IMG/VR virus record: IMGVR_UViG_3300027659_000124
Span: 1-32,769 of that record
Origin: a virus
Reading direction: 5' to 3' (one strand)
Length of the DNA stretch: 32,769 nucleotides
How positions within the stretch are numbered: the first letter of the stretch is position 1; each line of letters opens with the position of its first letter. This document shows, one piece after another, positions 925-31,535 of the stretch. Both the position numbers and the translations under genes were made by a program. Below the pieces are notes generated by a model. The model was not told where the DNA came from and made no database searches. It was given only the letters and a program-made list of their open reading frames with translations.

Positions 925-2133
925 ATGGCTCAAGAATGTATCCCATTGGCGACAATTCAGAATTTCGCCTCTAAAGACGTAAATCGTATCATTGGTCAGA
1001 TCGCTAAGGTCTTGGCTCGTAAATCCCCATACATCAACTCGATTGATGGTGGAACCCTTCCATCCGTATCGGACGTTGTTCGTAGCGTGGTTGAGGAAAT
1101 GGCAGTTCCTGCCGCTTCTCTCGCCGCTCCTACCTTCGTAAACGACACGGGTCTTTGTGGTATCGGTGCAACCCCTGACGTTGTTGGCTCGACTGAGTAT
1201 CAGTTCCAACTCCAGACACTCCGTGGTGCTGGCCCTCGTGTTTGCGTTAAGCAAGCTCGTACAGCGTTCAAAGGTTCTTACCTCCAAGCTCAAGTTTCTC
1301 TTGAGAAAACGATCCTTCAGATCATCAATGCTGACATCCGTTATCAATACCTCATTCAGTCTGGTATCAAATACGTTGTCAACAGCACATACTCGTTTGG
1401 CAATAACCTCACGGGTGATATGCAGCAGATCAACACTCAGTTCGCCGCTCATCTCCCTGATGCAGCAATGAACTTCAAAACCCTCTATCGGATTGGTACG
1501 TTCCTCCGCGAAGAGATGCTTGCAGAACCTTTCGCATCAAAAGATGGCGAGTTCTTCCAAGTTCTTGCTAGTGCCGATCAGATCGAAACCTTCCGTAATG
1601 ATGCAGACGTTAAAGAAGACTTGCTCTATCTTACCGCTGGTTCGTTCAAGTTGGGTGATGAGTCCATTTCGGGCTATCAGTTCATGGGTTATCGCGGTTT
1701 CGCATTCGGTATCGACCAACAGCCACTTCGCGCTACTGGTTTTGACGGAAACGGCAACCTTGTCCTCGTCAACCCAATCGTCAGCACCGCTGTTACGAAT
1801 GGTTTCGCTCAACGCCGCAACCCAGCTTGGGTAGCTGCACCTTACGAAATTATGTTCGTAATCGGTGGCGAAGCATTCAAACGCCTTGTGCCTGAACAAT
1901 ACGTTGGTGAAGGAACATTCCGTTTCGCTCCTCAACTCGCCATGGGTGAGTTGGAGTGGACATACTTCCGCGATAACGATTGTAACTTGTATGGTGACTT
2001 CGGTCAGCATATCTATCAAATCCAACGCGCTATCCAACCAATCCGCCCACAGAACGTGTGCGCGATTGTCTACAAGCGTTGCCCATTTGATGGCAATCCA
2101 CTTCCCTGCTCGACCGTAACAACGGGACTGTAA
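925..2133 (+). CDS. probable major capsid protein
   Basis: A 402-aa protein with the size and mixed alpha/beta composition of a phage major capsid protein. It is the first large gene of the structural block and has a long private leader. Its codons favour C-ending forms (AAC, ATC, TTC, CTC, CGT), unlike the A/T-ending codons of the genes that follow, as expected for the most abundant virion protein or for a different gene origin. It has seven cysteines, three of them in the last 30 residues (around KRCPFDG and LPCSTV), which is many for a capsid protein and could allow disulphide or metal cross-links. The start follows an A-rich leader without a Shine-Dalgarno. A stem-loop lies directly downstream. 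The call rests on position, size and composition, not on a recognised signature motif. Confidence 0.6.
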   Translation: MAQECIPLATIQNFASKDVNRIIGQIAKVLARKSPYINSIDGGTLPSVSDVVRSVVEEMAVPAASLAAPTFVNDTGLCGIGATPDVVGSTEYQFQLQTLRGAGPRVCVKQARTAFKGSYLQAQVSLEKTILQIINADIRYQYLIQSGIKYVVNSTYSFGNNLTGDMQQINTQFAAHLPDAAMNFKTLYRIGTFLREEMLAEPFASKDGEFFQVLASADQIETFRNDADVKEDLLYLTAGSFKLGDESISGYQFMGYRGFAFGIDQQPLRATGFDGNGNLVLVNPIVSTAVTNGFAQRRNPAWVAAPYEIMFVIGGEAFKRLVPEQYVGEGTFRFAPQLAMGELEWTYFRDNDCNLYGDFGQHIYQIQRAIQPIRPQNVCAIVYKRCPFDGNPLPCSTVTTGL

Positions 2134-2477: not shown

Positions 2478-6102
<3,625 letters not shown>

Positions 6103-9580: not shown

Positions 9581-10345
9581 ATGGCAAATATCACCCACAA
9601 GTGGAAAAAAGTCCTAGCAGTTAGTTGTTCACATGCGAAATATTGTTGCCCAGATGCTTGGAAAGCTGTAATGACGTTTAAATCGCGTTTTTCACCTGAT
9701 ACAATCCTGCATCTTGGAGACTTTATTGATTTATCAGCCCTAATGGGCAATGGAATAGGTTCTGGAAGTGATGGAGATGAAGTAACTCCAGACATTGACA
9801 CTGGGTTAATGCACCTACGTGAATTAATGGCTGGATGCAAGAATCCTTATGTTCTTTGTGGAAACCATGAAGATCGTGCATGGAAACTAACTCACAGCAA
9901 AAATTCTGTCACTTCATATTGCGCTCATAAAATTGTATCTGCAATTGAAGACACAACTAAAAAGTTAAAAGCTAGGTTAATTCCTTATTCTGGAATTGAA
10001 CAGATCGTTGACATAGCAGATATTGGGTTTACTCATGGAACTTGCTATGGTGAATCTGCGGCTAGGGATATGGCAGAACAATACTGCAATGGCACTAGAC
10101 GTAAAATAGTAATGGGACATACTCATCGTGTTGCCATACAGAATGCCAGAACATATCATGGTGGAACTTGCTATAATATTGGAACATTAACGTCTAGGGG
10201 AGCGTTAGAATACGCTAAAAACCGAAGAAGCACTTTCAGTTGGTGTCAGGCTTGGTGTTGGGGTGAGTATTGTGAATCGCTTAATCAATCTTCACTTCAA
10301 ATAACGCAAAGAGGAAGAGGAGAAGCATGGAGAATGCCAATTTAA
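9581..10345 (+). CDS. calcineurin-like metallophosphoesterase
   Basis: A 254-aa protein with most of the metallophosphoesterase motifs: LHLGDFID (GD), LCGNHED (GNH[ED]), FTHG and MGHTHR (GHxH). The first motif, normally DxH, reads SCSH, so the usual first metal-binding Asp is absent. The many cysteines in the N-terminal part (SCSH, YCC) and the C-terminal part (WCQAWCWGEYC) are unusual. Relatives include nucleic-acid or phosphodiester hydrolases, and phages often encode them without known substrate. It directly follows the endolysin. Activity is uncertain because of the altered first motif. Confidence 0.75.
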   Translation: MANITHKWKKVLAVSCSHAKYCCPDAWKAVMTFKSRFSPDTILHLGDFIDLSALMGNGIGSGSDGDEVTPDIDTGLMHLRELMAGCKNPYVLCGNHEDRAWKLTHSKNSVTSYCAHKIVSAIEDTTKKLKARLIPYSGIEQIVDIADIGFTHGTCYGESAARDMAEQYCNGTRRKIVMGHTHRVAIQNARTYHGGTCYNIGTLTSRGALEYAKNRRSTFSWCQAWCWGEYCESLNQSSLQITQRGRGEAWRMPI

Positions 10346-10346
10346 C

Positions 10347-10610
10347 ATGACCCCAAACGATTTTCTTAAAATTCTACTAGAGGCAAGCAATAAATGCACA
10401 GATCCAGCACCAAAGGGATGGTATTCTAAAAATGATCTATGCAAAGTATGGAATATCAAAAAAACTTCGTGTAAAGAAAGGATTACATCAGGAATGAAAT
10501 TAGGACTGATTGAAAGAAAAGATTTCTATATTCCAAATGTAAATGGAATTTTATTTCCTGTCCCTCATTATTTTTTTAAATATGAAAAAAAGCCTAAGAG
10601 TAAGAATTAA
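10347..10610 (+). CDS. small winged-helix-like protein
   Basis: An 87-aa protein starting one base after the phosphoesterase stop. The middle (YSKNDLCKVWNIKKTSCKER followed by an Ile-Thr-Ser-Gly-Met-Lys-Leu-Gly-Leu-Ile stretch) has the spacing of a winged helix-turn-helix, where a helix is followed by a turn and a recognition-like helix, then a beta-wing. It ends in a lysine tail. It could be a small regulator of late genes, but no family is recognised. Confidence 0.5.
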   Translation: MTPNDFLKILLEASNKCTDPAPKGWYSKNDLCKVWNIKKTSCKERITSGMKLGLIERKDFYIPNVNGILFPVPHYFFKYEKKPKSKN

Positions 10611-10851
10611 CGGGCAAGTATGGACTATTAGTTATGGTATTCCGGGTAAAACCAATGGAATTATTGATGATGGGTGTTGCGACTACGAAAAACGTAAGAT
10701 TACAATCAATCGAAATGCAGAAAGCAATCTTCTTAATGTATTATCGCATGAAGTGCTACACGCAAGACTTCCAGACTTTAGTGAGGACGCTATTGAAGAG
10801 TTAGGCTCATTAATTGACGAGATTTATGTCAAAATGCAGCAAGTTTCTTAA
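10582..10851 (+). CDS. small HExxH zinc-metallopeptidase-like protein
   Basis: The start chosen is ATG 10582 (MKKSLRVRINGQVWTI), giving 89 aa. An upstream ATG at 10543 adds an improbable leader. The motif HEVLH sits in LNVLSHEVLHARLP and is followed by an acidic EDAIEELGSLIDE helix, as in short phage SprT/IrrE-like zincins. The N-terminal beta strand region (GQVWTISYG) and NGIIDDG also fit that group. Such proteins occur in many phages without known substrate. It overlaps the preceding gene by 29 bases. Confidence 0.6.
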   Translation: MKKSLRVRINGQVWTISYGIPGKTNGIIDDGCCDYEKRKITINRNAESNLLNVLSHEVLHARLPDFSEDAIEELGSLIDEIYVKMQQVS

Positions 10852-10896: not shown

Positions 10897-12423
10897 ATGA
10901 GTTGCTACGATGAATGCGTTCCAGATTATCCTGTTTGTGATTGTGTTGACACCAGAGGTGCTACTGGAGCTACAGGCGTAGGATTTGTAGGAGCCACTGG
11001 TCTTACAGGAGCAACTGGTGCTGGAGCAACTGGCGCAAGCGGATCTGGCGCAACTGGAGCCACTGGCCCAGCTGGAATTGGAGTACAGGGAGCAATGGGG
11101 CCACAAGGAATACAAGGGCCACAAGGACAGGCTGGAACAAATGGTTCAACTGGAGCTACTGGAACAGAGGGAGCCACAGGAGCTACTGGTTATGGGGCAA
11201 CTGGCCCAGCTGGAACGTCTCCAGTATTAACTCGTCAAAGTTCTACAACCTTCCCTATTCAAGTAGGAACAAAAACATTTTTTTATACATCAGCAGATGT
11301 TGGATGGACTTATGGATCACGCATTCGCATTGTTGCTAATTCTGCATATCCTTTTGATTGGATGGAAGGCAATATCATTAATGTTGCTTCTAATTTTGTA
11401 ACCGTATATGTTGATAAAACTCAAGGTTCTGGAACATTTTCAGACTGGGTTATTGCATTAACTGGAGATGGAGGCATTGGAGCAACTGGTGCTAGTGGAG
11501 TTCAAGGTGCAACTGGTTCAACTGGGCCAGCAGGATCTACTGGAGCTGGAACTACTGGAGCAACTGGAGTTGATGGGCCAACAGGGCCACAGGGAGCAAC
11601 TGGAATTACTGGAGCCACTGGATCTGGAGCGACTGGAGCGACTGGAACTATTTTAAATTTTATTGGAGAATGGACAAGTGGATCATATGCAGCTAATACA
11701 GTTGCTGTTTCTCCAATTGATAGAAACACATATATTAGTCTAGTTGTAACATCAAATGTTAATATAGACCCCTCTTCTGATCCAACCGAATGGGAAATAT
11801 ATTCATATGGAGGCGCAACTGGAGCCACGGGATTAACTGGAGCCACTGGAGCTGGAATTACACTTAAAGGTACAGTTGCAGATATTGTAGATTTACCTCA
11901 AGTTGACAATGTAGTTGGAGATATTTATATTGTAACAAATGAAGATGGACATGGGTATATTTGGGATGGATCTTCTTGGAACGATGTTGGCCCAATTCAA
12001 GGGCCACAAGGGCCACAAGGTGCAACTGGAATACATGGATCTACTGGCATTGAAGGAGCAACTGGCGCAACTGGTTCTGGAGAAACTGGAGCAACTGGTT
12101 TAACTGGCATTGAAGGAGCAACTGGCATTGAAGGAGCAACTGGGCCACAAGGCGCAACTGGGTTACAAGGAGCTACTGGAGTTACGCCCCCATCAAATGC
12201 AGGAAATATTTGGACATTTACAGGGGATGGATCAACATTAACTTGGTCATTAACAGGAAATACATCTGGTAGTATTGTTTCTGCAAATTATTTAGCATCA
12301 ATTGATGGCATTTTACAATCTCCATTAAACTATACAATCAACAATGTTTCACCAAGAACACTAACAATTTCAACTGTTCCATCTGGAAGTTTCCTTGTTG
12401 TTGTATCTCTTTCTACAGCTTAA
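10897..12423 (+). CDS. second collagen-like fibre protein with carbohydrate-binding-like modules
   Basis: A 508-aa fibre. Its N-terminus is rich in cysteine ([16 protein letters not shown]: five Cys in 16 residues). Gly-X-Y blocks (mostly GAT) at about 22-108, 190-248, 303-318 and 365-430 alternate with small beta domains. One at about 249-302 ([17 protein letters not shown], later PTEWEIY) resembles CBM5/12-type carbohydrate-binding modules. Another (about 319-365) contains [20 protein letters not shown], a pattern common in phage fibres. The C-terminal domain ([13 protein letters not shown]) matches the domain at residues 533-603 of the first collagen gene. It probably forms a trimeric appendage. 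Confidence 0.8.
12041..12107 (+). repeat. second copy of the 67-bp collagen segment
   Basis: Matches 3224-3290 at 66 of 67 bases. Further shorter identical segments (for example around GATGGGCCAACAGGGCCACA) are also shared by the two fibre genes. Confidence 0.85.
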
Positions 12424-13651: not shown

Positions 13652-14794
13652 ATGTCTTGCAATAATCGCAGAAGCGGCCCTTGCTGCCCAGATACACCTT
13701 ACCCACAGGTTTCCCATGAAAGCGTACCATCGCTAATTGATAACCTTGTTAATGCACTTTATGGGTCTATTTCAAAGTGCGTTAAAAAAGGACGTGTAAT
13801 TTGGAATATCCCATGTGATCCATCAACAACACCAGCTGAAGTGTCTGGAATTCCACGCGAACAAGGAGAAGGTCTTCTTTGTTATATCATTCGGGTATTG
13901 AATGAAGATGTTGCAGTAATTCCAAATGTTGTTCAAACAAATACAACACAAACAATAACTGGTCAAAAAACATTCACGCAAAACATTATTGCTAGTGGCG
14001 GAATTAATGGCAATGTTACTGGAAATATTGTAGGAGATATTGTTGGTGATGTCACTGGTAATGTTGTTGGTAATGTTGTTGGAAATTTAACTGGAAATGT
14101 TATTGGCAATGCAACGACAGCAACTAACGCAACTACTGCGACTACTGCGACAACTGCAATTACTGCAACAACTGCAAATACAGCTACAACTGCAAATATT
14201 TTAACAACCACTAGAACAATTGCTATTTCTGGAGGTATTACTGGAACTGCTACGTCTTTTAATGGTGGAGCAAATATTTCAATTCCAGCAACGATTACAT
14301 CTGGAGCGACAATTACATCTCCTGTGCTTGCTGGAACAGCAACAGGAAGTTTAACATCAAAAGTTATTCAAGGTATTACAGATGGAAGTTCTGTAACTGC
14401 TGGATATATTGGAGAATTAATAGAAGCAAGTCAAGCAAGCACATCTATTACAACTGGTGCTACTCTAACAGCAATAACGCTATCTCTTCCTGCTGGTGAA
14501 TGGGATGTTTTTGGAAACGCAACATTTAATTTTTCTACAACAACAGTAACTGCAAATACAGCAATAGCGGTTGGTGTAAGTACTGCTCTTGCAACGCTTC
14601 AATTAGACAAGCAGAATCTACTTATGCTTCCATTGTTTACAACAGCAACATTGGCCCCAGCGTTTGCTCTTGTAACTCCAAAAGTTCCTGTTACTCTTAC
14701 AGCTACAACTCCCATATATCTTATCGTTAAAGCCCCGGGATTTACTGGAACAATAACATATACAGCTACAATTAAAGCCCGTAGAATCCGTTAA
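13652..14794 (+). CDS. fibre-like protein with GNV and TTA tandem repeats
   Basis: A 380-aa protein with a cysteine-rich N-terminus (MSCNNRRSGPCCPDTPY). Residues about 120-153 are eight tandem 4-residue units of the form G-[ND]-[VIL]-[TVI] (as in GNVTGNIVGDIVGDVTGN). About 154-182 is a run of Thr-Thr-Ala and Thr-Ala-Asn units. Such low-complexity strands are expected to make a beta-helix or a trimeric shaft. The C-terminal 120 residues form a beta sandwich-like domain (LPAGEWDVFGNATF, later IYLIVKAPGFTGT), resembling fibre head domains. Function is inferred from composition and neighbours. It could be another adhesin. Confidence 0.65.
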   Translation: MSCNNRRSGPCCPDTPYPQVSHESVPSLIDNLVNALYGSISKCVKKGRVIWNIPCDPSTTPAEVSGIPREQGEGLLCYIIRVLNEDVAVIPNVVQTNTTQTITGQKTFTQNIIASGGINGNVTGNIVGDIVGDVTGNVVGNVVGNLTGNVIGNATTATNATTATTATTAITATTANTATTANILTTTRTIAISGGITGTATSFNGGANISIPATITSGATITSPVLAGTATGSLTSKVIQGITDGSSVTAGYIGELIEASQASTSITTGATLTAITLSLPAGEWDVFGNATFNFSTTTVTANTAIAVGVSTALATLQLDKQNLLMLPLFTTATLAPAFALVTPKVPVTLTATTPIYLIVKAPGFTGTITYTATIKARRIR

Positions 14795-23616: not shown

Positions 23617-24453
23617 ATGGAACAACTAATAAATAAAACAATAAATAAAATAACAGAATGGAATAAAAGATGGCCTAGAGCAGTGGTTTTGTGGAGTGGA
23701 GGAAAAGACTCCACGGCATTGCTTCATCTTATTAAATTCAAAGCTGGAATTGATCTTCCAGTAATTCAATATCGTGAACCAAAAATGCGAGAACGATATG
23801 CGTATTCCGATAAGTTAATCAAAGATTGGAAGCTAGAAGTGTACGATTACCCACCGAATAGGGTTTCAATTGCTGATGGCCCAGACGTTGAAACGGGAGA
23901 GTTGCGTTTTGACTTTATCAAATACTACCAATGGGGAAAACAAGCTGCTGTATGCCTTTCTTTGGGAACAGAACGACCAAAGGATAGCGAAGACTACCTG
24001 TGTGCCGTTACAGACCTATTACAACGCCCTACAGGCACTTTTAATTGGCCTTGGGGGGCAGTATATATTGGGACAAAATATTCAGATACAGATTTAATTA
24101 AAGGCCATGTACCACTTGCTGTTGATATTCGATATGCTGACGATTCGCCAATGTCACTTTATCCGCTCAGAGATTGGACTGATAAAGACATTTTTCAATA
24201 TTTGGAAGAAGAAGGAGTAAAGCCAGATCCAACTCGATATGTAAAAAGTTGGGATACTTGGGGGAACAATAAAGATAAATCACTTAATGCCGACTTTTAT
24301 CCTGTTTGCTTTAACTGCGTTAATCGACATGAAGGGAAATACGTTGATTGTCCAAAATTGAAAGCTAAAATATCTAACATTTCTCATCTTGCTCCATATG
24401 AAGACTTGGTAAATGAAGACTTAGGATTTCGTCCTGTTGTATGGAACAAGTAG
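23617..24453 (+). CDS. PP-loop ATPase, PAPS-reductase/DndC-like
   Basis: A 278-aa protein with the PP-loop motif SGGKDS at residues 27-32, which binds ATP pyrophosphate, and the later element YPLRDWTDKDIFQYLEEEG characteristic of the PAPS-reductase group. Near the C-terminus Cys231, Cys234 and Cys245 (VCFNCVNRHEG, then VDCPK) form a CxxC plus one Cys, a likely metal or Fe-S site, as in several members that thiolate or adenylate substrates. The family covers sulfate reduction, DNA phosphorothioation (DndC) and tRNA thiolation. No dnd partners are present here. It overlaps the YkgJ-like gene by 13 bases and lies inside the virion block. Confidence 0.8.
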   Translation: MEQLINKTINKITEWNKRWPRAVVLWSGGKDSTALLHLIKFKAGIDLPVIQYREPKMRERYAYSDKLIKDWKLEVYDYPPNRVSIADGPDVETGELRFDFIKYYQWGKQAAVCLSLGTERPKDSEDYLCAVTDLLQRPTGTFNWPWGAVYIGTKYSDTDLIKGHVPLAVDIRYADDSPMSLYPLRDWTDKDIFQYLEEEGVKPDPTRYVKSWDTWGNNKDKSLNADFYPVCFNCVNRHEGKYVDCPKLKAKISNISHLAPYEDLVNEDLGFRPVVWNK

Positions 24454-24728
24454 AGTTTGACTGCAAGTCATGTGGGGCTTGCTGTGCTTTTAAATGGTCA
24501 TGGCCTGTTTTCAAGAGAGATAGATCAGATGCAAAAAGTATACCAACAGACATGGTGAGAACTGACTATCCATTAATGAAAACAGAAAATAATAGATGTG
24601 TTGCATTAGATGGAAAGATTGGTGAATCTGTGTGTTGCAAAGTATATAATGATAGGCCAAACTCATGCCGTAAATTTGAACCGGGAAGTGATTTGTGCAA
24701 GGAAGCTAGAAAAAAACTTTTGACATAA
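24441..24728 (+). CDS. YkgJ-type cysteine-cluster protein
   Basis: A 95-aa protein with CKSCGACC at residues 8-15 and later Cys53, the pair Cys65-Cys66, Cys76 and Cys86, arranged as in the YkgJ (zinc- or iron-chelating cysteine cluster) family: an early CxxCxxCC, then C, CC, RPxxC and C. The function of that family is not settled; some members were annotated as Fe-S oxidoreductases. Its start lies inside the PP-loop gene, giving tight coupling. A promoter box overlaps its last codons. The pair may act together in a sulfur or metal modification step, which is inference. Confidence 0.8.
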   Translation: MEQVEFDCKSCGACCAFKWSWPVFKRDRSDAKSIPTDMVRTDYPLMKTENNRCVALDGKIGESVCCKVYNDRPNSCRKFEPGSDLCKEARKKLLT

Positions 24729-27476: not shown

Positions 27477-30400
27477 ATGGCTATTGATTTTATACCAACT
27501 GAAGAGGAACCTAAAAAGGAAGAAAAAGAACCATCTAAAAAAGAAATATCTTTTACTCCACAAAACGAAGAGGTTCAAGAAGAGGAAGAATCTTCTATGA
27601 CTGCTGGTGGAACTGCCTCCGCTGTTGTTCGTGGAGTTTCCCCTACCTTAGCTCAAGCCGGGACTGGTGCTTTGATGGGAGTTGGATTTGGGCCTCCCGG
27701 GATGGCTGTTGGTGCTGTTGGAGGTGTTATTTCTGGTCAATTAGCTGATCTTGCTATCTCTGGAATCAATTCTGCTTTTGGAACTCATTACTCAACAACA
27801 AAAGAAGCAGTAACTCATCTTCTTGATAAAATTGGTGTTCCTGAACCAACATCTTCTGGAGAAAAATTAACTGAAGCAATTACTGAAGGTGCTTCTGAAA
27901 TGTTTGGTGGAGCAAAAGCTGCTGGAACATTGTCTAAATTAATAAAACCAGAATCTATTCTTTCACTTCCAGAAAGACGCACTGCTGAAACAATTAAAAA
28001 AACAGCAACTTTTGTCGGTCAAAGACCAGTTGAACAAGCATTAATGGGCGGGGCTGCTGCTGGTGCTGGTGAAGCAGCTAAACAAAGTGATTATGGGCCA
28101 TTGGGACAAGCAGGATTCTCTTTGGCTGCTGGTACTGCTGTTCCCGTTGGAGGAGGTATTTTAAAAGGCGTAAGAACATTATTCCCTCCATCTCAAGCAA
28201 CAAGAGCAACTCAAGCCAGAGAACTCACTAAATCAACGCTCCAAGCATCTGTAATTGACAAAGAAAAAGCGGCTGCTGAGTTAGCAAAAGCGTCAGAGGT
28301 TAGTGGTGAAGGCGTTAATCTAATGTCTGGAGATATTACTGGAGATCCAAGGCTATTGCAGCTTCAAAAGAGTCTTAGATCAATTTCATCTGAAATGATG
28401 AAAAGAGACATTGAAAATGTTAAAGGTATTTCACAAAAGATTGGTAAAGGACTTGAAGAGACTGGTGCTGCACCAGAACAGACTCAAGCATATTTTAAAT
28501 CTAAACTAGACGATCTTCGTGCTCAGACAGAATCAATTGGAAAATTCGTTCAAGAGTCTGGTGATATTGAGGCTCAAAATGTATTTAATCAAGCATCAAA
28601 ATCAATTGCTGAAAATACTGCTCTCGCTGAAAGGGGAGTTATTACAACAGAAGAAGCATTAAAAACAGCTTCAGAAAAGCTATCAAATTCATTCTCTGAG
28701 TTATCCGCTCAAAAAAATGCAGTTATAAAAGACACATTAAGTTCTAATGTTGCTGATATTATTGGAAAACAAAGATCAGTAGAAAAAGCAAAAATTAACG
28801 ATCTTTATAGTAAAGCTGAAGGTGAAGTTACTCCATTTATTCAACGAAACACAATAGATTCAAAAGAAGGACTTGTTAAGGAATTTGGTGAAGAAAGACG
28901 ACTGCCACAAGAAGTTAAAAAGATACTTTCTGAGGTTGTTGATGCTGATGGAAATCCAGTTCCAAGAGAATTATCTCAATTAAGAGCCGACATAAAAGCT
29001 ATTAATTCTGAGATACGATCAGCACAATCAAGTGCAGCAAGGCAATCAGAAGTTCCTGCTTTAATTAGATTCAAAGAAGCATTGAATGCCGATATGGAAG
29101 ACCTTGGTGATGTAAGTGAAAATTTAAAAACTGCGAATCAAGCATATTATCAATATGCTCAAAGATACAAAGAAGGTGCTTCTGGAAAAGCATTCGGCCC
29201 TAAATCTGATGTAAATAAAGTTATTAACGAATACATTCCATCTGGAGTTAAGGCAGCTACCCCAATTGAAATTAAACGACTAAGAAGTGCCATTGAAGGC
29301 GATCCAACCATTCCTAAAACTCCAGAGATGGAGTCAGATGTTAAATCTGGAATAGATAATGTAAACCAATGGATTTATAGTTCAATGGCAGATTCTGTTG
29401 GAAAATCAAAAACATCTGAATCAATAAGAAGCTGGATTAATACTGGTGGAAAAAGAATTCTAAATGTATTTCCAGAAGCTAGAGCTAAAGTACATGACGA
29501 ATTAAATAAATTTGAACAACTTGAAGATGCCGTAAAACAAGCTAATAAAGGAATTAAAGAAGCGTCAGATGATAAAATACTTTCAGGTCAGAATGCAACT
29601 CAAGTAGAAAGAGAAGCTAATAATAGTTCAAAACTATTAATAAAACAAGCAGAGAAAGTAAAGAATGAATTGTTTGATGAATTTCAAACATCTATAAATC
29701 CAAAATCAAATCCAGCGGCAAGATTTGTGGGTGGTAATCCTTATGAAATTGTTGGCAAGGTAATGTCTGATAAAGTTAATCTTGAAAATAATGTTCAAAA
29801 CCTCGTTGCACAAGCAGCAATGGATGAAACAGGACAGGCTCAAGAGGGGCTTAAAAACGCATTCCGTGGTTGGCTTAACTCTAAAGAAGGAGTGCGAACA
29901 ACATCTAAATCAACTGTAGGAATAGGAGTTCAACAACCAACTATTCTAAATGAAGATTTGCAGGCAAGTTTAACAAAAATGCGTGATTTGTTAACTGAAG
30001 GAACCTCAACAAGAAATGCGCTTGATTCTGTTTTTGGAAAAGATTCTTATGAGTTATCTAACCTTGATAAAGCAAGGCAACAACTTGAAATTATTTCAAA
30101 AAAAGGTTCATCAGCTATAGCTGAATCTGTTCAAGTTGAAAAAATTGGTCAACCAAAAGGATCTCAAATTAATGATTCTTTATTGAGTCTTGCCGCAATT
30201 GGTGGTGCTGGAGTTAAGGGATACTTGGCATTTAAAACAGCAGATTTACTTAAACAAATTCAAAAAAAGTATAAAGAAGACACGCTTGTTTTGTTTAAAG
30301 ATATGCTTACTGATGCAATGCTTAACCCAGAGACTGCAAGGGTAATGTTGCTTGAGCCAACTAAACAAAATATGCCAGCAATTAACAGATTGCTTAGAAC

Positions 30401-30485
30401 ATTTGGAGTTGATCTGAAGGCTGAATCAACAACACAAAAAGAATCAGAAGAGCCATCATCAGAGATTCAATTTGAAGAACAATAA
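27477..30485 (+). CDS. large internal virion / DNA-ejection-like protein
   Basis: A 1002-aa protein. An acidic/Lys N-terminus (1-40) precedes a Gly/Ala hydrophobic segment at about 62-97 (ALMGVGFGPPGMAVGAVGG) and a second at about 187-230, either of which could insert into membranes. Residues 240-890 are mainly charged helices and coiled coils. A third hydrophobic stretch lies at about 902-925 (LSLAAIGGAGVKGYLAF), followed by an acidic tail ending EIQFEEQ. Such long helical proteins with glycine-rich hydrophobic pieces are typical of podoviral internal proteins that form the ejection tunnel. No enzymatic motif was recognised. Confidence 0.6.
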   Translation: MAIDFIPTEEEPKKEEKEPSKKEISFTPQNEEVQEEEESSMTAGGTASAVVRGVSPTLAQAGTGALMGVGFGPPGMAVGAVGGVISGQLADLAISGINSAFGTHYSTTKEAVTHLLDKIGVPEPTSSGEKLTEAITEGASEMFGGAKAAGTLSKLIKPESILSLPERRTAETIKKTATFVGQRPVEQALMGGAAAGAGEAAKQSDYGPLGQAGFSLAAGTAVPVGGGILKGVRTLFPPSQATRATQARELTKSTLQASVIDKEKAAAELAKASEVSGEGVNLMSGDITGDPRLLQLQKSLRSISSEMMKRDIENVKGISQKIGKGLEETGAAPEQTQAYFKSKLDDLRAQTESIGKFVQESGDIEAQNVFNQASKSIAENTALAERGVITTEEALKTASEKLSNSFSELSAQKNAVIKDTLSSNVADIIGKQRSVEKAKINDLYSKAEGEVTPFIQRNTIDSKEGLVKEFGEERRLPQEVKKILSEVVDADGNPVPRELSQLRADIKAINSEIRSAQSSAARQSEVPALIRFKEALNADMEDLGDVSENLKTANQAYYQYAQRYKEGASGKAFGPKSDVNKVINEYIPSGVKAATPIEIKRLRSAIEGDPTIPKTPEMESDVKSGIDNVNQWIYSSMADSVGKSKTSESIRSWINTGGKRILNVFPEARAKVHDELNKFEQLEDAVKQANKGIKEASDDKILSGQNATQVEREANNSSKLLIKQAEKVKNELFDEFQTSINPKSNPAARFVGGNPYEIVGKVMSDKVNLENNVQNLVAQAAMDETGQAQEGLKNAFRGWLNSKEGVRTTSKSTVGIGVQQPTILNEDLQASLTKMRDLLTEGTSTRNALDSVFGKDSYELSNLDKARQQLEIISKKGSSAIAESVQVEKIGQPKGSQINDSLLSLAAIGGAGVKGYLAFKTADLLKQIQKKYKEDTLVLFKDMLTDAMLNPETARVMLLEPTKQNMPAINRLLRTFGVDLKAESTTQKESEEPSSEIQFEEQ

Positions 30486-30493
30486 AAAATAAT

Positions 30494-30637
30494 ATGCCAC
30501 TAAGAAAATGCGCCTCACAAAATTGCTTTGACAGGAATGTTTCAGCAGAAGTAAAATCAGGTAAGCCTGTAAAACAAGCTGTTGCGATTGCATATAGCGT
30601 CCAACGTGAAGCTAAGAAAAAAGCTAAAAAGAAATAA
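30494..30637 (+). CDS. small basic protein (DUF6496-like pattern)
   Basis: ATG 30494 opens a 47-codon frame ending at TAA 30635-30637. The sequence pattern is MPLRKCASQNCFDRNVSAEV, then KSGKPVKQAVAIAYSV, then a Lys-rich tail. The G-[KR]-P-x-K-Q-A-V-A-I-A core matches a widespread family of short phage proteins of unknown function. The basic tail suggests nucleic-acid contact or packaging with DNA. The two cysteines are additional to the usual core. Its coding potential is strong despite the short length. Confidence 0.75.
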   Translation: MPLRKCASQNCFDRNVSAEVKSGKPVKQAVAIAYSVQREAKKKAKKK

Positions 30638-30652
30638 ATTTATTCGTTCAAT

Positions 30653-30745
30653 ATGAATCAAGGTGATTGGAGTATTTTGATAATGGCAATTGCGTCATTT
30701 ATTGGTGGTGGTATTTGCATTGGCATTGCTACTTGGTGGGAGTAA
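30653..30745 (+). CDS. 30-aa single-span membrane peptide
   Basis: ATG 30653 to TAA 30743-30745 encodes 30 residues. A short polar start (MNQGDWS) is followed by a hydrophobic, glycine-containing segment (ILIMAIASFIGGGICIGIA) and a TWWE end. One membrane span is predicted. A role is unknown; small phage membrane peptides of this kind may regulate lysis or envelope contact. Confidence 0.5.
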   Translation: MNQGDWSILIMAIASFIGGGICIGIATWWE

Positions 30746-30785: not shown

Positions 30786-31442
30786 ATGATCACGTTAAAG
30801 TCTGTCGATCCAGTATCCATGAGGTATGTGACTGCTGGCGACTGGGAATGGTTGCCTAATGGCGAGTTGAAATGTTCTGTTGCTGAGTACGGCAATGAAG
30901 ATGGAGAGTTTTTAGTTAATCTTCATAAAATGGTGGAGGGTTGGTTATGCCGTAAAGCTGGAATCCGCGAGGATGAGGTATCTGCGTTTCATATTTCAAA
31001 TCCAGAGGCTCCACATCACAAACAGAACCAAACTGCCACAGAGGTAGAAAAGATCGTCTGTGAGGCAATGTCGATTGATTGGGAGGCACACAAAGAGTGG
31101 GTTCAACGTGCAAGTGACGAGGTGGAAGAAAAATCATTCCATGAAGTTCCATCAATCCTTATTAATGGGCCTAGATTCTGGGCTGAATTGCATTTGTTAG
31201 GAGTTCGACACAGGCAGGGAAAAAACATGACAGGATGGCTTAATGATTGGCGTGATTCCATTCCATTCAATGGATGTCCATGCAAAGAACATCTTGATAA
31301 TTGGTTTTCAGAAAATCCTCCTGATTGGAATCGTTTTTTTGAATGGGGAATTGATTTGCACAATGCAGTAAACTTGCGTATTGGAAAGCCTACTATGGAT
31401 GTTGAGAACGCAAAGGAATTGTGGATGCAAAAACATTTTTAA
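30786..31442 (+). CDS. fusion protein with ERV/ALR-like sulfhydryl-oxidase C-terminus
   Basis: A 218-aa protein in two parts. Residues 1-105 resemble a phage domain that usually carries an HExxE-type site; here the positions read LHKMVE, with Lys in place of the first Glu. The pattern PEAPHHKQNQTATEVEK and MSIDWEAH also fits it. Residues 130-212 resemble ERV/ALR-type FAD sulfhydryl oxidases: FWAELHLLG, then IPFNGCPCKEHL (Cys164 and Cys166), then FFEWGIDLHNAVNLRIGKP with the LHNxVN element. The usual CxxC is replaced by CPC, so redox activity is likely but not certain. It may make disulphides in virion proteins. Alternative: a structural relic of the fold. Confidence 0.6.
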   Translation: MITLKSVDPVSMRYVTAGDWEWLPNGELKCSVAEYGNEDGEFLVNLHKMVEGWLCRKAGIREDEVSAFHISNPEAPHHKQNQTATEVEKIVCEAMSIDWEAHKEWVQRASDEVEEKSFHEVPSILINGPRFWAELHLLGVRHRQGKNMTGWLNDWRDSIPFNGCPCKEHLDNWFSENPPDWNRFFEWGIDLHNAVNLRIGKPTMDVENAKELWMQKHF

Positions 31443-31502: not shown

Positions 31503-31535
31503 AGCCTGTGTTAGCGCACAGGCTTTTTCGTTTTT
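31503..31535 (+). terminator. rho-independent terminator
   Basis: AGCCTGTG (31503-31510) pairs perfectly with CACAGGCT (31517-31524) around a 6-base loop and is followed by TTTTTCGTTTTT. This is the clearest terminator in the window and ends the late transcript after the ERV/ALR-like gene. Confidence 0.85.

Follow-up and report, generated by a model that had tools for sequence, protein, structure and literature searches.

Erv-like CxC proteins of tailed phages as candidate sulfhydryl oxidases of the bacterial cytoplasm

One gene (here erv) in the window, as we call the whole 32,769 nt stretch analysed (positions 1 to 32,769 of the uncultivated virus record IMGVR_UViG_3300027659_000124), encodes a protein with a predicted Erv/ALR fold and a CPC motif in the position of the usual CxxC (Table 1). 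As the fold is accompanied by predicted FAD-site residues and a CPC pair that are invariant, our best guess from the sequences is that the product is a thiol-oxidising flavoenzyme. The explanation that we prefer, with a probability of roughly 0.6, is that it is an Erv-like CxC sulfhydryl oxidase, probably FAD-dependent, that makes disulfides in phage proteins within the bacterial cytoplasm. Disulfide formation in that compartment is suggested by the pairing of a compact Erv gene with a gene for a Cys-rich protein in a second phage group, by the Cys-only conservation of that protein and by the cytoplasmic assembly of tailed phages.

Table 1. Coordinates of the features of the window considered in the text
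Feature	Position	Strand	Evidence or remark
Putative capsid protein (so named in the earlier note), 402 aa, 7 Cys	925..2133	+	
Collagen-like fibre, Cys-clustered N-terminus	2482..6102	+	Pfam Collagen, E 2.9e-32
Small HExxH (HEVLH) zincin-like protein	10582..10851	+	Tracks erv
Collagen-like fibre, Cys-clustered N-terminus	10897..12423	+	Pfam Collagen, E 2.2e-14
Fibre-like protein, MSC..CC cap, conserved PYPxxSxESVPSL domain	13652..14794	+	Found with and without erv
47-aa basic protein, KCASQNCF motif, left neighbour of erv	30494..30637	+	
30-aa hydrophobic peptide ORF (MNQGDWSILIMAIASFIGGGICIGIATWWE), directly 5' of erv	30653..30745	+	Sequence reading
CxC Erv-like gene (erv), 218 aa	30786..31442	+	ORF; PF04777 E 4.3e-8; 47 IMG/VR relatives
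N-terminal domain, aa 1-120, degenerate zincin-like fold (predicted)	30786..31145	+	AlphaFold model, weak structure matches, alignment
Erv/ALR-like domain, aa 121-218	31146..31439	+	Pfam, profile, conserved residues, model, structure matches
CPC motif (C164-P165-C166) in CxxC position	31275..31283	+	Codons TGT CCA TGC
Terminator-like hairpin and T run, directly 3' of erv	31503..31524	+	

Residues 121-218 matched the Pfam family Evr1_Alr (PF04777) with an E-value of 4.3e-8 and a score of 33.9 bits (cut-off 27.6), and phmmer matched the window protein to human ALR at E 2.8e-4. With a 13-sequence profile the best match was the structure of ASFV pB119L (E 9e-13), followed by ALR, AtErv1 (Arabidopsis) and yeast Erv1. 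PF04777 was matched at E<=1 by all 13 family members scanned, and its cut-off was passed by 29 of 31 records. An AlphaFold model made with 13 close sequences had a pLDDT of 48 and was set aside; the model used was made from 38 diverse relatives and had a mean pLDDT of 89.4. Every one of the first 16 PDB entries aligned with it has an Erv domain (Z 13.7 to 5.6); among them are 3gwl (Z 13.7) and yeast Erv1 (Z 13.0). Foldseek gave a probability of 1.00 for the Erv fold, though with a best E-value of 1.2e-3, and the best matches among the predicted viral structures in BFVD were the sulfhydryl oxidases of Yasminevirus and Fadolivirus (36-38% identity). An earlier note on this DNA had read the C-terminal half as ERV/ALR-like and proposed structure prediction as a check; profile matches agree with those of the model, which fits Erv structures with Z up to 13.7, and at the level of the model we take the Erv/ALR fold as confirmed.

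The CPC motif that the note had placed where ERV/ALR proteins have CxxC is read directly from the codons, and C166 aligned with the second Cys of the Erv CxxC in the profile alignment. CPC was invariant in the 47 relatives of this large form inspected in IMG/VR, and was kept even in L029 (GDCPC) and L031 (EKCPC), the flanks of which mismatch the CPC-containing search pattern. Across 38 sequences with identities down to approximately 35%, W132, H136, H192, N193, N196 and W213 were invariant, as were both cysteines of the motif. We take these six residues (W, LH, HN-x-VN, W) to be Erv flavin-site positions, and alignments show that pB119L, ALR and AtErv1 share most of them. The predicted FAD-site residues, which the note had suggested checking, are therefore kept in the window protein and its relatives. 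No conserved second (shuttle) Cys pair was found in the alignment, where C30, C55 and C92 are each lost from some relatives; many viral Ervs are also without a shuttle disulfide (PMC3509050).

A broader scan retrieved compact proteins of approximately 130-150 aa that also exceed the PF04777 cut-off. The scan patterns for this family covered HNxVN and the C-terminal helix and excluded the Cys motif, and 80 of the 142 loci returned were kept. All 80 have CxC and none has CxxC; the middle residue is of nine kinds (D, S, Q, G, K, P, A, H or N), and many of the 80 sequences are closely related, which makes them fewer than 80 independent events. Neither the window-type nor the compact family shows any variation at the predicted flavin-site residues (W, LH, HN-VN, W). 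As CxxC is the stated signature of the Erv family (PMC10598087) and is replaced by CPC in the window type and by CxC in the compact type, we file these proteins as Erv-like CxC variants and not as canonical members. In mitochondria, the Erv1 partner Mia40 uses CPC as its redox motif (PMC4019985).

The compact erv genes point to a substrate. All 78 with enough upstream sequence to be testable stand directly behind a long Cys-rich ORF, the 3' end of which they overlap in examples such as L342. The product of this ORF has approximately 460 residues (435-516 aa where complete), is 6.5-9.3% Cys and has a Cys-capped N-terminus, starting like MGCFGKCGCPCCL. Such Cys richness is reached by only 8 of the 128 ORFs of >=150 aa in four genomes. 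When 64 distinct copies with identities down to 17% were aligned, 20 of the 22 columns conserved at >=95% were Cys, and the other two were M and P. The converse pairing also holds, as erv is the next gene in 31/31 copies of the Cys-rich gene with downstream sequence, a test that takes in relatives at >=28% identity. In G065, tailed-phage genes for head, neck and minor tail proteins lie upstream of the pair. Comparison of the Cys-rich protein with PDB sequences returned no match. One contig carries a second, divergent CxC-Erv fusion, directly behind a Cys-capped protein with 7.2% Cys that looks unrelated to the Cys-rich protein of approximately 460 residues. Given the gene pairing and the Cys-only conservation, we conclude that the upstream protein is likely to be the dedicated substrate of the compact Erv.

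In G062 (29607-30578, in L428), a CxC Erv-like domain begins a 323-aa protein that also has a C-terminal domain, and this protein stands behind a 349-aa Cys-rich protein.

Tailed phages assemble in the bacterial cytoplasm, which is a reducing compartment. We infer FAD binding, oxidase activity, virion disulfides and the substrate: the CPC disulfide would take electrons from the thiols of a phage protein and hand them to FAD, from which they would reach oxygen or a different acceptor, and disulfides would thereby form at the site of assembly. In the second group, the compact Erv would oxidise the paired Cys-armoured protein of the tail-gene region. By analogy, the window phage may use the same chemistry, and its collagen-like fibres are no more than candidate substrates. 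Counting against an oxidase are the absence of CxxC, the lack of a conserved shuttle pair and the lack of a thioredoxin partner, none being found in 24 genomes. A wider proposal, to which we give slightly less than even odds, is that tailed phages of at least two groups encode their own cytoplasmic oxidative folding, with a one-protein CxC Erv serving Cys-armoured tail or fibre proteins; within it, and with equal reserve, this single protein may combine a motif of the Mia40 type with the flavin site of Ervs.

In the window's own phage group, the link between erv and virion cysteines that the note had proposed did not hold. The N-termini of the proteins starting at 2482, 10897 and 13652 do read as clustered cysteines, as it had quoted them; the third begins MSCNNRRSGPCC and, unlike the other two, is not collagen-like by Pfam. 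The capsid that it had called cysteine-rich is a weaker point: the protein has 1.7% Cys versus a window mean of approximately 1.0%, and the ORF had no Pfam or PHROG hit and remains a putative capsid gene. Nearly all relatives, whether or not they carry erv, conserve six of its seven cysteines. At least 160 viral loci have the Cys-capped fibre domain (PYPxxSxESVPSL). Of 26 records with this domain that were tested and in which erv had not been seen before, two gave an erv match, a full gene in G052 and an N-terminal part at the contig end in G032.

Ten near-complete genomes lacking erv encode a putative capsid protein 82-89% identical to that of the window and have most other structural genes in common with it. 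Five of the ten end in exact terminal repeats and are thus apparently complete. Fibre caps retain 2-4 cysteines in erv-carrying genomes and 2-3 in those without erv (means of 3.3 versus 2.7, p 0.08 without phylogenetic correction). Fibres that are collagen-like and have Cys close to the N-terminus are as common without erv as with it (7/13 versus 7/15). No Cys-rich protein family that tracks erv was found in the window group. As genomes lacking erv retain both the cysteine caps and the cysteines of the putative capsid protein, the co-occurrence that the note had put forward as a test is absent, and its fibre link fails in this group. What survives of its phage-run disulphide set is drawn from the second group, with its paired Cys-rich protein.

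The presence and absence of erv need one to two changes on trees, so erv is an old gene, kept by vertical descent and absent from one part of the group; in G040, which lacks it, its two neighbours are simply adjacent. The gene for the small zincin-like protein was found in 13/15 genomes with erv and 0/10 without (p 2e-5), an association that may be one inherited event, as one to two changes account for the distribution of erv. Among the compact loci L305-L384, an HExxH zincin-like ORF lies downstream in 31/34, and erv and zincin genes therefore keep company in both groups. The mirror image of erv is seen in a Cys-rich 155-aa protein (G015:2524-2991, in L059), encoded by 10/10 genomes lacking erv and 1/15 carrying it.

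That erv is lacking in close relatives whose virion cysteines are the same marks it as accessory in the window group, as might be expected if the enzyme oxidised host thiols instead, in a redox, defence or shut-off target, with its N-terminal domain recognising a host protein. The variability of that domain also fits. We consider this unlikely, as it does not explain why erv in the second group is constantly paired with a phage gene for a Cys-rich protein behind the tail genes. Less probable still is a role in metal or Fe-S handling for the CxC Erv-like proteins and their Cys-rich partners, with CxC as a metal site. The partners could bind metal instead of forming disulfides, part of the CPC of Mia40 binds iron or Fe-S in vivo (PMC4019985), and the window phages also carry a CxxCxxCC protein; a metal chaperone would have no need of the predicted flavin-site residues, which are invariant in both families. 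That the Erv fold was kept solely as a redox-inactive structural or binding module of a virion or assembly protein would suit the loss of the classic CxxC spacing, but is the least credible reading, as conservation is among the highest at both cysteines and at the predicted FAD-site residues, while the residue between the cysteines is free to vary.

The gene for the CxxCxxCC (zinc/iron-chelating) protein (window 24441-24728) is overlapped by a PAPS-reductase-like gene (23617-24453), and many window-group phages, both erv-carrying and erv-less, have the pair. In both groups, genes for calcineurin-like phosphoesterases are found close to Cys-capped fibre or Cys-rich genes (window 9581-10345; downstream of compact erv, as in L342:3254-4255).

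Residues 1-120 are confidently predicted to form a separate domain in the AlphaFold model. Its matches to the zincin metallopeptidases IrrE (Z 5.2) and abylysin (Z 4.5) are weak (rmsd 3.5-3.8), and its sequence is variable across the aligned relatives. The catalytic HExxH is HKMVE in the window and HELVE in many relatives, and is lost from others. As the catalytic motif is degenerate, we read the modelled domain as a probable scaffold or binding domain, and under the oxidase explanation it would bind the substrate or a partner. Ac92 and R596 are precedents for an extra domain fused to a viral Erv (PMC3509050). In L008 (10001-10678), an in-frame stop lies inside the erv N-terminal domain, reflecting either a pseudogene or a sequencing error.

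Among known systems, the closest by profile and structure are ASFV pB119L and the compact Ervs of NCLDV, which share the Erv fold, coding by a virus and a single Cys pair at the flavin site. However, pB119L has CxxC (CTRC), and NCLDV infect eukaryotes whereas the window virus is bacterial. Cellular Erv1, ALR, Erv2 and QSOX have the Erv domain and FAD-site residues in common with the window protein but use CxxC, usually with a shuttle pair (PMC4019985, PMC3509050), while the phage CxC-Ervs are without a conserved second pair. Mia40 has the same CPC redox motif (PMC4019985) in a twin CX9C fold that is not a flavoprotein, and the likeness is one of motif alone, set here inside an Erv fold. Baculovirus Ac92 (P33) likewise joins an Erv module to an additional folded domain at the N-terminus (PMC3509050); it belongs to a eukaryotic virus, and the likeness is one of domain layout. 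In CyDisCo, a sulfhydryl oxidase makes disulfide-rich proteins in the bacterial cytoplasm, and yeast Erv1p with PDI allows proteins with 8 to 44 disulfides to fold in that of E. coli (PMC7037224). CyDisCo is engineered and includes PDI, whereas the phage cassette would be natural and no PDI was found.

Our findings suggest that some phages bring their own disulfide-making machinery into the reducing bacterial cell. If so, a CxC site in the Erv fold would alter the view of what Erv catalysis requires, and CyDisCo would have a natural counterpart in phage disulfide-making in the bacterial cytoplasm. The origin of phage structural disulfides would also become directly testable, because the gene directly upstream of that for the compact enzyme encodes an obvious candidate for its substrate.

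Erv enzymes have been described in eukaryotes, in giant viruses and insect viruses, and in a few bacteria (PMC10598087, PMC3509050); for tailed phages, no description of an Erv was found in the open-access literature. The phage CxC Erv-like proteins thus apparently constitute an undescribed group of bacterial-virus proteins. IMG/VR, INPHARED, PLSDB and one genome per GTDB species were searched with pattern-limited scans. The 47 relatives of the window protein, at 35-100% identity, came from IMG/VR, and the scans found none in INPHARED, PLSDB or the GTDB genomes; the single GTDB match, L225, was rejected, being a chance match over 12 residues that had no PF04777 hit.

Upstream of erv, hydrophobic peptides like that of the 30-aa ORF were also found in several relatives, and the 47-aa KCASQNCF protein is present in relatives without erv. 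The evidence for a terminator 3' of erv is weak, as one such hairpin was found where 0.9 are expected by chance. Two contigs (G010, comprising L054-L058, and G028) each carry two different erv genes, 62.5 kb apart. Duplication was rejected for G010, where the flanks of the two copies match only in patches (77-91%), and for this reason the two-erv contigs are likely to be pairs of related phages joined in assembly.
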